This document shows positions 6,979 to 16,795 of a stretch of 33,847 bases of DNA, in pieces. How positions within the stretch are numbered: position 1 is the first letter of the stretch; every line of letters starts with the position of its first letter. The translations under genes were made by a program, and so were the position numbers. Source of the stretch: an uncultured Sphingomonadales bacterium. GTDB lineage: Bacteria; Pseudomonadota; Alphaproteobacteria; Sphingomonadales; Sphingomonadaceae. The stretch spans positions 1 to 33,847 of the forward strand of contig CALGEE010000150.1 in NCBI GenBank assembly GCA_937881525.1, given 5' to 3'. The notes below the pieces were generated by a model that was not told where the DNA came from, did not search any database, and was given only the letters and a program-made list of their open reading frames with translations.

Positions 6979-7701
6979 ATGACTCGAGTTGCTGTGGTTA
7001 CCGGGGGAACCAGAGGTATTGGAGAGGCGATTAGCCTCAAGCTGCAAGAAAAAGGCAGGCACGTCATCGCCAATTACGGCGGCAATGATGCCGCAGCAAA
7101 GGCGTTTTCGGAGCGTACAGGAATTGCGGTGCAAAAATGGGACGTGGGTGACCATAAAAGCTGCATTGATGCCTGTGCGGCGATTGAGGCCCAATTTGGC
7201 CAGATCGACATCATGGTGAATAACGCCGGTATCACGCGCGACGCCACCATGATGAAGATGACCTTTGAGCAATGGGACGAGGTTATCCGCGTTGACCTTA
7301 CCGGCTGCTTCAACATGGCAAAGGCGGTGTTTGCGGGCATGCGCGAACGCAAATGGGGCCGCATCGTCAACATCGGCTCCGTAAACGGCCAAGGGGGCCA
7401 AATCGGCCAAGTGAACTATGCCGCCGCCAAATCCGGCATTCACGGGTTCACAAAATCACTTGCGGCAGAAGGCGCGCGTTACGGCGTAACCGCAAACGCC
7501 ATCGCGCCAGGATATATTGGCACCGAAATGCTTTCGACGATCCCTGAAAATGTGATGGAAAAAATTATCGCGCAGATACCTGTTGGGCGTCTTGGGCAGC
7601 CCGAAGAAATTGCGCGCGGTGTTGAGTTTTTGACCAGTGACAATGCAGGGTTCATCACCGGGTCGACTTTGTCGATCAATGGTGGCCAGCACATGTATTG
7701 A
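6979..7701 (+). CDS. phaB: Acetoacetyl-CoA reductase (SDR family)
   Basis: MTRVAVVTGGTRGIGEAIS, NNAGITRDATMMKM, VNYAAAKSGIHGFTKSLA, GQHMY C-terminus. ATG at 6979 preceded by AAAGGAG; the ORF-track start at 6958 is less likely. Confidence 0.93.
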   Translation: MTRVAVVTGGTRGIGEAISLKLQEKGRHVIANYGGNDAAAKAFSERTGIAVQKWDVGDHKSCIDACAAIEAQFGQIDIMVNNAGITRDATMMKMTFEQWDEVIRVDLTGCFNMAKAVFAGMRERKWGRIVNIGSVNGQGGQIGQVNYAAAKSGIHGFTKSLAAEGARYGVTANAIAPGYIGTEMLSTIPENVMEKIIAQIPVGRLGQPEEIARGVEFLTSDNAGFITGSTLSINGGQHMY

Positions 7702-7750
7702 TGGTCATTGGGACTTGAACAACATTTACCACCCTCCCGTTAAGCGCAGC

Positions 7751-7942
7751 ATGACGGTTGCGGGGCATCAGACGTCAATTAGCCTTGAGCCATTATTCTG
7801 GAATAGGCTGCGCGCTGCGGCGGAAGCAGAGGGCTTGCCAGTAAACGCGGTTGTGGCCCAGATCGATGTTGCGCGTCTGGAATCGGAAACGCCATGCGGT
7901 CTGGCTAGCGCAATAAGATTGTGGCTTATGACGCGTACATAA
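7751..7942 (+). CDS. Small ribbon-helix-helix domain protein (RHH_4-like)
   Basis: 63 aa MTVAGHQTSISLEPLFWNRLRAAAEAEGLPVNAVVAQIDVAR...GLASAIRLWLMTRT, matching the family pattern (HxTSISLE.FW..L...A...). Confidence 0.75.
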   Translation: MTVAGHQTSISLEPLFWNRLRAAAEAEGLPVNAVVAQIDVARLESETPCGLASAIRLWLMTRT

Positions 7943-7985: not shown

Positions 7986-8654
7986 TTAAAGCCCTGCTTC
8001 TACAGCAATTCTGACGGCATCAGCGGCGTTTGAAGTCGCAAGCTTCTTAAACATAAGCATCCGGTGCATCTGAACTGTTTTTTCACTTAGCGACAGACGA
8101 TACGCAATTTGTTTCGTGCGGAATCCGTGGGCCATTTGCTGCAATATCTCGCGTTGACGTGGGGATAGGCGGTCCACAATTTGTGCAGCCTGTTGTTGCC
8201 GCACCAGGGCAATACTTTCTTCCTCGGGCAAAACCTCAATCTGCGAGCCTACGAAAAGCTGCAGATTGCCCAGATCGTCGAACAAGGGCGCGATCATCAC
8301 AGCGTTGCGAAATGGTGACCCGTCTTTCCGATAGTTGATAAGCTCGGCCAAAGCAGGACGCTGCCCATATACGGCGGAACGCAGTTTTTCGGTCTGGCCA
8401 TTTTCGGTGTCCGGCCCCCGCAAGAAACGGCAATTCCGACCAATCGCTTCGGCTTCAGCATATCCGGTCAGTGTGCAAAACGCGGCGTTGACTGCGATAA
8501 TCGGATTGTCAGATTTAGTCGGGTCGCTGACGACCGTCGCAATCGGACTAAACTTAATCGCAGCCAGAACCGGATGCCGGCTGGCTGAAACGGGGGAGGA
8601 GGGAATGTCTAACTTCACTCGGTAGAGGATACCGCCAAAATGTCCTTCTGGCAA
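7986..8654 (-). CDS. LOV (PAS) - LuxR-type HTH putative blue-light-responsive transcriptional regulator, EL222-like
   Basis: GRNCRFLRG adduct-Cys motif, NYRKDGSPFRNAV and VGSQ motifs, then LSPRQREILQQMAHGFRTKQIAYRLSLSEKTVQMHRMLMFKKL (GerE/LuxR HTH). Start codon uncertain. Confidence 0.9.
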   Translation of the reverse strand: MPEGHFGGILYRVKLDIPSSPVSASRHPVLAAIKFSPIATVVSDPTKSDNPIIAVNAAFCTLTGYAEAEAIGRNCRFLRGPDTENGQTEKLRSAVYGQRPALAELINYRKDGSPFRNAVMIAPLFDDLGNLQLFVGSQIEVLPEEESIALVRQQQAAQIVDRLSPRQREILQQMAHGFRTKQIAYRLSLSEKTVQMHRMLMFKKLATSNAADAVRIAVEAGL

Positions 8655-8693: not shown

Positions 8694-9974
8694 TCATTCT
8701 GTGCCAACGCGTTCGATATCCGCGCCCACCAGCTGAAGCTTTTCTTCAAGCCGTTCGTAACCGCGATCGAGATGATAAAGGCGGCTGACATGGGTTTCGC
8801 CCTCTGCTACCAAGCCCGCAATGACTAGGCTCATCGACGCGCGAAGGTCGGTTGCCATGACTGGTGCGCCCGTGAGTTTCTTGACGCCATGGACGATAGC
8901 CGTGCGGCCCTTGGTTTCGATATGTGCGCCCATCCGGTTCAATTCGGGGACATGCATATAGCGGTTTTCAAATATGGTCTCCGTCAGCACGCTGGCGCCG
9001 TCTGCCATGCAGAGCATCGCCATGAACTGCGCCTGCATATCGGTGGCAAAACCGGGATAGGGTGCAGTTGAAATCGTGAGTGGCTTCAATTTGCCGTCCG
9101 ACTTCACGCGTATACCAGTCCCTGTATCTTCCACGGTCACGCCGGCCTGACGCAAGGCATCAAGCGTCGCGTCCATCTCGCTTGCTTTTGCACCGACGAG
9201 TTCAACATCTCCGCCCGTCATGGCAGCAGCGCAGGCGTAGCTGCCTGCTTCGATCCGGTCGCTCATGACGCGGTAGGTCGCACCATGCAAGCGGTCCTTA
9301 CCCTGAATGATGAGATCGGATGTGCCAATACCTTCAATCTGCGCACCCATGGCGACAAGCATATTGCATAGGTCCACAATTTCAGGCTCGCGCGCCGCAT
9401 TGTGTAAAACGCATGTGCCCTTTGCAAGGCTCGCAGCCATCAACGCATTTTCGGTTGCGCCCACAGATACGACGGGGAAGGTATATGTACCGCCCGGAAT
9501 GCCCTTTTTGGCGATAGCTTTGACATAGCCTGCGGCCACTTCAATCTCGACACCAAAGGCCTGTAGCGCCTTCAGGTGGAGGTCGATCGGGCGGTTGCCA
9601 ATCGCGCATCCGCCGGGCAGCGAAACTGTCGCCTCACCTGCCCGCGCCAGCATTGGTCCAAGCACCAAGATTGATGCGCGCATTTTGCGGACGAGGTCGT
9701 AAGGCGCGACGTTGCTGGTAATCCGCGTCGCTTCAAGGGTCATGACGCGGCCAAAATCTTCGGGGCGCGATCCTGCAACAGTGGTCGATATGCCGAACTG
9801 GTTCATCAGATGCTGGAAGCCGTCAATGTCGGCCAGACGCGGCAAATTGCGCAGCGTCAACGGTTCATCGGTCAGCAGCGCGCACGGGATCAGCGTCAAT
9901 GCGCTGTTCTTTGCACCGGAAATAGGAATTTTGCCTTTAAGTGCGTTGCCGCCATGTACGATTATTTTGTCCAT
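8694..9974 (-). CDS. murA: UDP-N-acetylglucosamine 1-carboxyvinyltransferase
   Basis: 426 aa [53 protein letters not shown]. Confidence 0.97.
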
Positions 9975-11884: not shown

Positions 11885-12505
11885 TTATGCAGCTTTCTTG
11901 AAAAGCTCAGTCGTTACCGCGATGCGGTTTGAGATTGGCTGGAACATTTCGCTTACCAGCTTGACCATTGCTTCTGTGTTCTTAGAACCCTGAGCAACGG
12001 CGGTGTCGAAACCCTTGCGAGCCATCTCACCCTGCAGCTTGACGAAATCGGTTGGAGATTTCACGGCGGTCAGTTCCTTAACTGCGACCTGGACGTCTTC
12101 GAAATTCTTCTTGGCGAATTCCATATTGGTCTTGCCCATTTCTTGAGCGCCCTTGGCAACGATCTTGCCGGCTTCAACGACGGCTTCAACATTCGCCTTG
12201 TTGAATTCGACGGCTTCAGCGGCAAACTTCTTGCCCTTTTCAGCGGCTTCGTTCGCCTTATTGCGTACGTCTGCGAAAAACTCAGTCGCTTTTTCTGCAG
12301 TGGCTTTAACAGTGTCAGTCATCTTAGATACTCCTTGTGCAATCGGTGTTGTTTCAACAGACACAGTTTTATGCGCCGGCGAAGCAGCGGGCGCTTCCGC
12401 CTTGGTCTTCGCAACGGCGCTCGATTCAGCCTTCAAAGCCACGTCCTTCTTCGCCGCGACTTTGGCGGTTCTCGATGGTGCAAGGGTTTCTGCTTTGAGC
12501 GTCAT
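11885..12505 (-). CDS. phaP: Phasin family protein (PHA granule-associated)
   Basis: Amphipathic helical [50 protein letters not shown]...; Lys/Ala-rich N-terminal extension. A shorter form starting at 12322 is equally plausible. Confidence 0.85.
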
Positions 12506-12526
12506 AAGTAATCACCATTGCTGTTG

Positions 12527-12541
12527 TGTTGCACTGCACAA
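12527..12541. promoter_or_regulatory. Candidate PhaR-type operator copy 1 (TGTTGCACTGCACAA)
   Basis: 15-nt near-palindrome with a TGCA-N-TGCA core, repeated at 12574-12588 with one central mismatch; lies 5' of the phasin ORF. Confidence 0.5.
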
Positions 12542-12573
12542 TAAATGCAGTGACAAACCGTGTCAACAAAAAA

Positions 12574-12588
12574 TGTTGCAGTGCACAA
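12574..12588. promoter_or_regulatory. Candidate PhaR-type operator copy 2 (TGTTGCAGTGCACAA)
   Basis: 14/15 identical to 12527-12541, centres 47 bp apart. Confidence 0.5.
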
Positions 12589-12606
12589 AAATGACTTGGC
12601 GGCGCA

Positions 12607-13746
12607 TTAGTCCGCCAATGTTAGACGTTCAAAGCGTTCATAGTGATGATCAGCAGAACCGAACTGGTTTTCGATCATTGTTGCCCGTTTGAAGAAATGG
12701 CCGATCGCCAATTCTTGGGTAATGCCAATACCGCCATGTGTTTGGATGGCGCTTTGGCCAACAAACTTTGCAGAGCGCGAAACCTTCGCCTTGCAAGCCG
12801 ATACCGCGGCCATGCGTTCGGCAGCGGGCAGATCAAGCTTCAGCGTTGCCATTGTGGTCATGGATTTCGATTGCTCAACTTCCATGAACATGTCGACCAT
12901 CCGGTGCTGAAGCACTTGGAAACGCGAAATTGGCTGACCGAATTGGTTACGCTGGCGTGCATATTCGAGCGTGCCTTGATGCAGCTTAGCGGTCACACCG
13001 CAGGATTCTGCGCAGACTGCTACGGTTGCTTCGTCGACGATGCGTTCGATAAGCGGCAGGCCTGCGCCTTCGTCGCCCAACAGGGCATTGCCCGGTATTG
13101 CGGCATTTTCAAAGTAAATTTCAGAGGCCTGAAAACCATCTACCGTTGGGTAATCGCGACGGACAATACCTTTTGCGCTCGCGTCGATCAGGAGCAGAGA
13201 CACGCCGTTTACATCGGTGTTCGCGCCGCCGGTGCGTGCGGTGACGAGTAAATGCGTTGCCCATGGCGCGGCGTAAACGACGCTTTTATGGCCGTTCAAC
13301 ACATAGCCCGCGCCGTCCTTCTTCGCCGTTGTGCGAATATTGGCAAGGTTGTAGCGCCCTTGTGGCTCAGCATATGCAAAGCCAATTATGACATTCCCGC
13401 CAATGATTTCAGGGATAACCGAGTCAGCGACAGCGCCACCAACAGCCTTCAACGCACCGCCACCCAGGACGACGGTCTGGAGATAAGGCTCAATCGCGAT
13501 GACCTTGCCAAGCTCTTCCATAATCAACGCATTTTCGAGATATCCGCCACCAAGGCCACCATGCTCTTCGCTGAAGGACGCGCCAAGCATGCCAAGATCC
13601 TGCGCCAGTGCCTTCCAAATGCCTTGGTCACGCCCGCTGCTGCTGGCGATCATCTTGCTGCGGCTGTCGAAATCGTAGGTGTCCGCCAAAAAGCGGCTCA
13701 ATGTGTCGCGTATCATGTCCTGCGTTTCGGTGTAGCTGAAATCCAT
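12607..13746 (-). CDS. Acyl-CoA dehydrogenase family protein (small-subunit-like, pimeloyl-CoA dehydrogenase PimD-like)
   Basis: MDFSYTETQDMIRDTLSRFLADTYDF...; THGGIGITQELAIGHFFKRATMIENQFGSADHH C-terminus lacking the usual IYGGxxEIQR. Confidence 0.85.
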   Translation of the reverse strand: MDFSYTETQDMIRDTLSRFLADTYDFDSRSKMIASSSGRDQGIWKALAQDLGMLGASFSEEHGGLGGGYLENALIMEELGKVIAIEPYLQTVVLGGGALKAVGGAVADSVIPEIIGGNVIIGFAYAEPQGRYNLANIRTTAKKDGAGYVLNGHKSVVYAAPWATHLLVTARTGGANTDVNGVSLLLIDASAKGIVRRDYPTVDGFQASEIYFENAAIPGNALLGDEGAGLPLIERIVDEATVAVCAESCGVTAKLHQGTLEYARQRNQFGQPISRFQVLQHRMVDMFMEVEQSKSMTTMATLKLDLPAAERMAAVSACKAKVSRSAKFVGQSAIQTHGGIGITQELAIGHFFKRATMIENQFGSADHHYERFERLTLAD

Positions 13747-13770
13747 TATAGTTATCCCGTCCAGTGGCCC

Positions 13771-13883
13771 GTTATGCTGAACTCGTTTCACCTGCGGTGA
13801 CTTCGTTCCAGCACCTTACTTTCGACGTTGCGAATTAAGACCCTGAAACGGAGTGACCATCGGTCAAACCAGTTCAGGGTGAC
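13771..13883. repeat. Intergenic REP-like palindromic repeat remnants
   Basis: GTTATGCTGAACTCGTTTCA, then ACCCTGAA...TTCAGGGTGACG with a perfect 8-bp inverted repeat (13840-13847 / 13873-13880). Confidence 0.45.
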
Positions 13884-13897
13884 GGTTAAATGTTAGA

Positions 13898-15091
13898 TTA
13901 AATACCCAGCACCATCTTGGCGATGATGTTGCGCTGGATCTCGTTCGATCCACCGTAAATCGTCGTCTTGCGGGTGTTGAAATAGGTCGGTGCGGCACGA
14001 TGTGCGTAGTCCGGACCTATGGGGTGCTCATTGTCGCCTTCGCCAAAGCCACGAAAATAAGGGGCGCCATAATGGCCGACTGCTTCCAATGCGAGCTCGG
14101 TAATCCGCTGTTGAATTTCCGAACCTTTGATTTTCAGCAAGCTCGATTCAGGGCCAGGGCCCTTGCCCGATGCTTCGCCGGCAAGACTGCGCAATTCCGT
14201 GAACTCAAGCGCGGTAAGATCAATTTCAAGTTCCGAAATCTTACGCTTGAAAAATGGATTGGCGATCAACGGGCGGTCGCCGTCCTGTTCGGTGCGGGCA
14301 ATCGCCTTGATCTTCTCTACGCCGCGCTTCGAACGGGCAACGGCAGCAATGCCTGTACGCTCATGCGCAAGCAGGAACTTGGCACAGGTCCAGCCCTTAT
14401 TTTCTTCATAAACGCGGTTTGCGACCGGCACGCGTACATCTTCCAACCAAACTTCGTTGACTTCATGCTCGCCGCCCAAGGTAATGATTGGACGCACGGT
14501 GACGCCCGGCGTCTTCATGTCGATTAACAGGAAGCTGATGCCTTCTTGCGCCTTGGCATCGGAATCGGTGCGCACGAGGAAGAAGCCCCAGTCGGCATGT
14601 TGCGCCATTGTCGTCCACGTTTTCTGACCATTGACGACATAATCGTCGCCGTCACGAACTGCCTTGGTACGCAAGGATGCCAAGTCGGAACCTGCGCCTG
14701 GTTCGGAATATCCCTGACACCACCAATCATCACCCGACAATATGCCGGGAAGGAACTTAGCCTTCTGTTCCGGTGTGCCGAAGGTGTAGATCACCGGACC
14801 AACCATCGACAGACCGAATGGCATCGTGCCTACGCAGTCAGCAGCGGCCAGTTCTTCCGACCAAATGAAACGCTCGGTCGCGGTCCAGCCTGTACCGCCA
14901 TATTCGACGGGCCATGCAGGTGCGATCCAGCCTTTTTTAGCGAGAATACGATGCCATGACAGGAAATCTTCCTTCGAAAGCTCATGCCCCTCGTCCTGTA
15001 CGGAGCGGAGATTTTCGGGATAATTTTCGGCGATGAATGTACGCACTTCCTTCTGGAAGGCGATTTCTGCGGGGCTGAATTCCAGTTGCAT
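13898..15091 (-). CDS. Acyl-CoA dehydrogenase family protein (large-subunit-like, PimC-like)
   Basis: MQLEFSPAEIAFQKEVRTFIAENYP; WCQGYSEPGAGSDLASLRTKAVRDGDDYVVNGQKTWTT; TTIYGGSNEIQRNIIAKMVLG. Confidence 0.93.
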   Translation of the reverse strand: MQLEFSPAEIAFQKEVRTFIAENYPENLRSVQDEGHELSKEDFLSWHRILAKKGWIAPAWPVEYGGTGWTATERFIWSEELAAADCVGTMPFGLSMVGPVIYTFGTPEQKAKFLPGILSGDDWWCQGYSEPGAGSDLASLRTKAVRDGDDYVVNGQKTWTTMAQHADWGFFLVRTDSDAKAQEGISFLLIDMKTPGVTVRPIITLGGEHEVNEVWLEDVRVPVANRVYEENKGWTCAKFLLAHERTGIAAVARSKRGVEKIKAIARTEQDGDRPLIANPFFKRKISELEIDLTALEFTELRSLAGEASGKGPGPESSLLKIKGSEIQQRITELALEAVGHYGAPYFRGFGEGDNEHPIGPDYAHRAAPTYFNTRKTTIYGGSNEIQRNIIAKMVLGI

Positions 15092-15124
15092 CTCGATTCT
15101 CCTAAAAACGTTCAGCCCGAATTA

Positions 15125-15148
15125 GTCGACGTTTACGTAAACGTCAAC
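15125..15148. promoter_or_regulatory. Palindromic operator candidate upstream of the acyl-CoA dehydrogenase genes
   Basis: GACGTTTACGTAAACGTC (15128-15145) is a perfect 18-bp palindrome; it extends to 24 bp with one mismatched pair. Confidence 0.6.
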
Positions 15149-15154
15149 TGAATC

Positions 15155-16795
15155 TCAGCGTGCCTTCACATAGCTTCCTGGTGCTGATTCTAGAGCCTTC
15201 AGAGTGCCTTGGCCAGGTTGACGGCCTCCCGTCGCCGGCACGCACGCATTGCCCCTCTCTGTCAGCCAAACGAGCCAATCAGGCCACCAGCTGCCTTTGG
15301 TCTCGGTTGCGCCTTCAATGAACGCTTCAAGCGAAGGCGCAGCAGCGTCATTGGTCCAATATTGATATTTCATCTGCGCCGGGGGGTTCACCACGCCTGC
15401 TATATGCCCACTGCCAGCCAGCACAAATTTCATAGGCCCGGTAAAATGGTCCTGTAGTTTCCAAACGCTTTCGGCAGGTGCAATATGATCTTCGCGACCT
15501 GCCTGAATGTAAGTTGCCGTTTTTACGCGGCGCAGGTCAATCGGGGTGCCCAAAGCCGACAAATCGTGAGGCTTCACCAGCCGATTGTCGCGATAGAGGT
15601 CGACAACATAATTTCGATGCCATTTGGCGGGCAGGTTGGTGACATCGCCATTCCAGTGGAGGAGGTCAAACGCGGGATAATCCTCACCCAGCAAATAGTT
15701 CTTCACGACCGTCGACCAGATCAGGTCCTTGCCGCGCAACATATTGAAGGTGAGCGCGAGGAACCGTCCGTCCATATAGCCTTGAGGTGCGCTGAGCGCT
15801 TCCATCATGGCAATCTGCTGATCATCGATGAAATGCAGCAGTTCACCGCTGGTGCTAAAGTCGACCTGTGCGGTAAAAAATGTCGCGCTGCGCACCTTAT
15901 CCGCAGCGTCAGTGGCAGCCAGGATGGAGAGGGTTGCCGCTAAGGTTGTTCCGGCAACGCAATAGCCAATCGCATGCACGTCTGGCACATCAAGACCGGA
16001 GCGGACGGTATCAATTGCATCGATCTGCGCCGCGATATAATCATCCCAGACGATGTCTTTCATAGTGCTGTCGGCCGATTTCCAAGACACGACAAACACC
16101 GTGATGCCTTGGTCCACGCAATATTTGATGAAGCTTTTTTCTGCCGTCAGATCCAGAATATAAAAACGGTTAATCCATGGCGGAAATATAATCAGCGGCG
16201 TCTCCAGCACATCTTCCGTCGTCGGATCATATTGAATAAGCTGGTACAGTGGGGTTTGGTGCACGACCTTGCCCTTTGTCGCCGCGATGTTTTCCCCAAG
16301 TTTGAATGCGGTGGGATTGGTATGCGTAATCTGTCCGCGTTGCATGTCTTCTATCAGGTGCTGCATTCCGGACATGAGACTTGCGCCATTGGTTGCCATC
16401 GCTCGCTCAAGCGCCACTGGATTGGTAAAGGGCGAATTGGCCGGGCTCATCGCCTCGATAATAGTGCGCAAGGCAAAGTCCATCTTGGCCTTGTCATGAT
16501 CAGCCAAGCCAACCAACTGATCGGCGGCAGTTAACATATATTCAGACATGACCTGATAACTCTGCCGCACAAGGTCAAAAACCGGGTGTTCCCATTGCGG
16601 TGCTGTAAATCTGCGGTCAGACGTATCGACCTTATCACGCCCGGCCTTGGCAAGCGGCTCGAGCACAGCCCCCCACGCGTCCAACGCGGCGCGATAGGCC
16701 TTTAAGGGGTCAGTGGTTGCAACAGCTGACTGCCCAAACAGTTTCATAAACTGGTCCGCGTCTATAAACGGCGGGATATTGGTTGAGTCGGCCAT
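15155..16795 (-). CDS. phaC: Class I poly(3-hydroxyalkanoate) synthase
   Basis: 546 aa; lipase-like box GYCVAGTT with Cys nucleophile, LIIFPPWINRFYILDLTAEKSFIKYCVDQGITVFVVSWKSAD, GSGHIAGVVNPP. Confidence 0.95.
   Translation of the reverse strand: MADSTNIPPFIDADQFMKLFGQSAVATTDPLKAYRAALDAWGAVLEPLAKAGRDKVDTSDRRFTAPQWEHPVFDLVRQSYQVMSEYMLTAADQLVGLADHDKAKMDFALRTIIEAMSPANSPFTNPVALERAMATNGASLMSGMQHLIEDMQRGQITHTNPTAFKLGENIAATKGKVVHQTPLYQLIQYDPTTEDVLETPLIIFPPWINRFYILDLTAEKSFIKYCVDQGITVFVVSWKSADSTMKDIVWDDYIAAQIDAIDTVRSGLDVPDVHAIGYCVAGTTLAATLSILAATDAADKVRSATFFTAQVDFSTSGELLHFIDDQQIAMMEALSAPQGYMDGRFLALTFNMLRGKDLIWSTVVKNYLLGEDYPAFDLLHWNGDVTNLPAKWHRNYVVDLYRDNRLVKPHDLSALGTPIDLRRVKTATYIQAGREDHIAPAESVWKLQDHFTGPMKFVLAGSGHIAGVVNPPAQMKYQYWTNDAAAPSLEAFIEGATETKGSWWPDWLVWLTERGNACVPATGGRQPGQGTLKALESAPGSYVKAR

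Follow-up and report, generated by a model that had tools for sequence, protein, structure and literature searches.

A Sphingorhabdus LOV-HTH protein of the EL222 type and an unlinked rhodopsin gene as its candidate target

EL222 is widely used as an optogenetic tool. A gene for a protein resembling it (lov-hth) lies in the genome of an uncultured Sphingomonadales bacterium (G000), which belongs to Sphingorhabdus, and raises two questions: whether its product is a working blue-light switch and which genes such a switch would control. The window, i.e. the whole stretch of DNA analyzed (33,847 nucleotides), carries the only intact LOV-HTH gene found in this genome. By analogy with EL222, the LOV sheet would hold the LuxR-type HTH in the dark; blue light would lead to an adduct between FMN and Cys63 and free the HTH and the dimer helix, and the dimer would then bind a short operator and activate transcription.

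The lov-hth gene and its product

The sequence-only reading placed an EL222-like blue-light regulator in an ORF at 7986-8654 and gave no strand. The ORF has been confirmed on the minus strand, the plus-strand translation being full of stops, and the motifs GRNCRFL, NYRKDGSPFRN and VGSQ were all found in the minus-strand frame, with the Cys codon at 8430-8432 as claimed. The frame and the stop side stood, and the 5′ end had to be revised. TTG 8654 was rejected as the start since it overlaps a TTGCNA motif kept in the alignment of all 25 orthologous upstream regions, and since in 9 of the 25 orthologues an in-frame stop precedes the next start. In most of the 25 rows TTGCNA is followed by a 17-nt spacer, a TATCCT/TATTAA-like hexamer and, shortly after, GTG (or ATG). 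TTG 8654 thus probably belongs to a conserved promoter, as its -35 box, and GTG 8618 is the most likely start. The GTG begins 7 nt past the predicted promoter, so the mRNA may be leaderless. The features of the gene are as follows.

7986..8618, minus strand: lov-hth CDS, 210 amino acids, stop included; orthologues share the start GTG 8618, and in 9 of 25 a stop closes the frame ahead of it
8626..8654, minus strand: predicted promoter TTGCCA-N17-TATCCT (window copy scored; TTGCNA in 25 orthologues)
8232..8549, minus strand: LOV (PAS) photosensor core (PAS_9, 4.4e-14; YtvA and LOV-HK models; fold match to 3p7n/8a5r)
8430..8432, minus strand: Cys63 (Cys75 of EL222), flavin adduct cysteine, invariant in 33 homologues
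8418..8420, minus strand: Arg67 (position 79 of EL222)
8304..8336, minus strand: NYRKDGSPFRN with flavin-contacting Asn95 and Asn105, both invariant
8241..8243, minus strand: Gln126, signalling glutamine in VGSQ, invariant
8172..8213, minus strand: linker helix between LOV and HTH, residues 136-149 (AlphaFold2 model)
8004..8171, minus strand: LuxR/GerE helix-turn-helix (PF00196, 6.3e-18)

The order proposed earlier, a LOV domain followed by a LuxR/GerE HTH, was borne out by the Pfam matches, and the product has the EL222-type architecture of an N-terminal LOV domain, a short linker helix and a C-terminal HTH within a range of about 210-225 amino acids. EL222 of Erythrobacter litoralis HTCC2594 (PDB 3P7N, 8A5R) shares this domain order, aligns over the full length without large gaps and was the best phmmer match in PDB (8a5r 8.6e-64, 3p7n 1.7e-63, residues 28-222). 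The LOV part alone is held in common with YtvA and LOV-HK photoreceptors, whose output is a STAS domain or a kinase instead of an HTH; the corresponding NCBIfam models matched it with scores below their equivalog cut-offs, as the difference in output domain would lead one to expect.

The adduct Cys and the flavin-contacting Asn/Gln set are all present, and the alignment of 33 homologues revealed no loss of FMN-contacting residues, N38, N44, N62, C63, N95, N105 and Q126 being among the invariant ones. The AlphaFold2 model, with these 33 homologues in the input, had a pLDDT of 87.5 and matched EL222 best among PDB folds (8a5r TM 0.86, 3p7n TM 0.84; 53% identity, rmsd 1.8-1.9), so the model reproduces how LOV and HTH pack against each other in the dark state. 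A dN/dS of 0.03-0.07 against the informative orthologues indicates strong purifying selection, and lov-hth is a real, constrained gene. Its membership of the EL222-type LOV-HTH family is nearly certain, and by analogy the protein is a one-component blue-light transcription factor which very probably binds DNA in a light-dependent manner.

A degenerate or light-blind LOV protein is barely credible. It could be argued from Arg67, which stands where EL222 has Ala and canonical LOV domains have Gln; however, Arg occupies this position in nearly all of the Sphingorhabdus clade, and further intact LOV-HTH proteins have it as well. The low dN/dS and the invariance of every other photochemical residue also speak against such a protein. 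The protein also differs from EL222 in having Ile for Leu52 and Val121 (EL222 numbering), corresponding to changes that slow the dark recovery of EL222; recovery may be slower here as well.

Recognition helix and neighbouring genes

A tree of 66 LOV-HTH rows places the protein in a supported clade of 32 from Sphingorhabdus; EL222 is among the 34 others. The recognition helix reads TVQMHRM in 32/32 clade members and TV/IKMHR[GAS] in 34/34 others (TVKMHRG in EL222), Q replacing K and the second M replacing G, A or S.

8043..8084, minus strand: recognition helix with clade-specific Gln183 (8070-8072) and Met187 (8058-8060)

By analogy with NarL, both positions presumably face DNA bases; the EL222 operator therefore cannot simply be assumed for this protein, and operators orthogonal to that of EL222 could be obtained from such a natural clade, in which the recognition helix has changed.

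Could the targets lie next to the gene? The order murA, lov-hth, a convergent RHH_4 ORF, fabG and hemH is syntenic in 25 relatives.

8694..9974, minus strand: murA, conserved upstream neighbour, context only (TIGR01072, 9.6e-164; syntenic at 25 loci)
7637..7942, plus strand: RHH_4 ribbon-helix-helix ORF, convergent, conserved small neighbour (PF13467, 4.2e-24, residues 34-99); its true start probably lies inside the listed ORF, whose listed start overlaps fabG

The conserved position beside murA would suit regulation of murA, hemH or fabG, and the sequence-only reading had allowed for neighbours among the targets. Control of these genes is nevertheless very improbable. The operator consensus of EL222 is RGNCYWWRGNCY (PMC10521638), and no such box was found in intergenic DNA near lov-hth; a separate promoter is predicted for the gene 3′ of murA, the neighbour on the other side is transcribed towards it, and the murA-RHH-fabG order persists in some relatives without lov-hth. 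The window as a whole contains two EL222 boxes against 1.2 expected, neither of them upstream of lov-hth, and they were rejected as evidence of local targets; RGNAYWWRGNAY occurs once against 2.4 expected. As to autoregulation, the lov-hth promoter holds no EL222 box.

At 11885-16795 of the window a phasin, two pimeloyl-CoA-type acyl-CoA dehydrogenases and a PHA synthase stand in a row, which marks a polyhydroxyalkanoate locus.

LOV-HTH genes beside rhodopsin in relatives

Clustering of the genes around related LOV-HTH genes revealed two recurrent adjoining ones, encoding a microbial rhodopsin (PF01036) and the beta-carotene dioxygenase Blh (PF15461). They adjoin LOV-HTH in Brevundimonas, in Blastomonas and at a second LOV-HTH paralogue, about 55% identical, that is present in part of the genus Sphingorhabdus. 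These rhodopsin-linked proteins belong to the same family as the window protein (52-58% identity), from which they differ in adjoining rhodopsin, in the K..A/G/S recognition helix and, outside Sphingorhabdus, in having perfect EL222 boxes at the rhodopsin promoters. Such boxes were present in 9 of the 11 rhodopsin promoters examined outside Sphingorhabdus, usually within an 18-bp palindrome TACRGCCTAAAGRCCGTA (the Brevundimonas sequence is TACGGCCTAAAGGCCGTA). Each of nine whole genomes holds the palindrome without mismatch in exactly one place, which is the LOV-rhodopsin locus; by chance, far fewer than one exact 18-mer match would be expected.

L055-L058, L060, L061, L064-L066: LOV-HTH, rhodopsin and the perfect 18-bp operator once per genome; blh seen only where the locus extends far enough

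Summed over all loci, EL222 boxes were at chance level (31 against 36), so only the placement at promoters and the 18-bp form are given weight. In several of these promoters a TTAA-like element follows the box centre at 31 nt, a -10 spacing (30-31 nt) recognizable in just 5 of 9 non-Sphingorhabdus promoters. Such a placement would fit an activator overlapping the -35 region; engineered EL222 promoters are activated with the operator upstream of -35 (PMC9614035).

Of the new results, the strongest is the link between LOV-HTH and rhodopsin in Brevundimonas and Blastomonas. Judged from gene order and promoter sequence, the sister LOV-HTH genes appear to control the adjoining light-harvesting rhodopsin, which suggests a natural role for this class of switches. 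No paper naming rhodopsin as the target of an EL222-type protein was found in a literature search whose coverage excluded the primary EL222 papers. One perfect operator per genome at a rhodopsin promoter offers a testable circuit from a blue-light switch to a light-driven membrane protein. In Aurantiacibacter luteus, the sister of EL222 in the tree, an EL222 box with one mismatch occurs within TACGGACTTTGTACCGT in a rhodopsin upstream region (L197:1283).

The rhodopsin gene of the same genome

G000 has a single rhodopsin gene (C112:13575), on a contig other than the window and in the shared glnA/PQQ-dehydrogenase neighbourhood. The second LOV-HTH beside it has decayed and is recognizable at residues 3-58 and 162-197 only; similar remnants occur at loci of other genomes with one LOV-HTH (G018, G020, G035, G066).

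L126:9044-9322, minus strand: decayed second LOV-HTH beside rhodopsin (G000:C112), adduct-Cys region missing

This rhodopsin is a better target candidate than the window neighbours. Because the LOV-HTH genes of relatives adjoin rhodopsin-blh and their rhodopsin promoters hold the single perfect operator of the genome, we infer that it could be the main target of the window protein, which in blue light would activate it in trans through a site some 42 bp ahead of the rhodopsin start; we give this reading a probability of roughly 0.35, and it is the most likely single target. The site lies in the upstream region L126:9400-9530 (rhodopsin start 9528). An element conserved in Sphingorhabdus, GGTATAAAGGAT (AGTATATAGCAT in G000), is found there, the whole conserved block being GGTATAAAGGATRGGTTG (AGTATATAGCATGGGTTG in G000), 30 nt away from TTAA. 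The element stays conserved although the neighbouring second LOV-HTH has decayed.

The same element might instead be a mere core promoter or the site of another regulator, with the window protein not acting there, which is a serious possibility a little short of even. It contains TATAAA, which could be a -10 box, lacks the C that the EL222 consensus has in each half-site, forms no inverted repeat and is identical whether the second paralogue is intact or not. On the other hand, 8 of 12 positions agree with GGCCTAAAGGCC, which at a single fixed position would happen by chance with a probability of about 0.003; GGTTG in the flank is likewise conserved, and the spacing to the TTAA-like element is within 1 nt of the EL222-box value. 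Genomes with an EL222-like second paralogue carry the same Sphingorhabdus element, which blurs its link to the altered recognition helix; a strict C-to-A change in both half-sites as covariation with the helix was weakened by this and by the lack of a palindrome.

Occurrence in the genus bears on the rhodopsin reading in both directions. The window-type gene was found in 26 of 27 rhodopsin-bearing genomes (some assigned by identity only) and in about 10 of 18 without rhodopsin, so that lov-hth accompanies rhodopsin, though it is not confined to it (Fisher p = 0.001, or 0.0002 without G010, relatedness between genomes being ignored). The exception, G010, is uninformative because murA itself is missing from the assembly; wherever a rhodopsin genome has the locus assembled (26 genomes), the gene is there. 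The ten genomes with the gene and no rhodopsin mean either that other targets exist or that rhodopsin is not a target. An EL222-type photoreceptor-activator serving mainly other genes (photoprotection, stress, carotenoids) has close to an even chance, being also in keeping with the recognition helix unlike that of the rhodopsin-linked proteins and with a LOV-HTH branch in Novosphingobium, Sphingobium and Qipengyuania (L067, L069, L073, L076) that adjoins a carotenoid-type phytoene desaturase homologue, an arrangement suggesting carotenoid control. Against it, among the intergenic matches of a genus-wide search with GGTATAAAGGATNGG, only those at rhodopsin promoters recurred. A genus-wide regulon built on this search was rejected: the other matches lay mostly inside coding sequences (acetolactate synthase etc.), with a few isolated intergenic ones.

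Extending the rhodopsin reading, EL222-type switches might naturally activate rhodopsin phototrophy, control in Sphingorhabdus having been taken over by the unlinked window copy from the linked one, whose decay in several lineages followed, while recognition helix and operator changed together; taken as a whole, this scenario is rather unlikely.

A possible 7-bp hairpin was also seen in L126, immediately before the ribosome site and some 40 nt ahead of the rhodopsin start. Across Sphingorhabdus the pairing of this 5′-UTR hairpin is kept in 91% of cells, a level reached by 24 of 500 shuffles.
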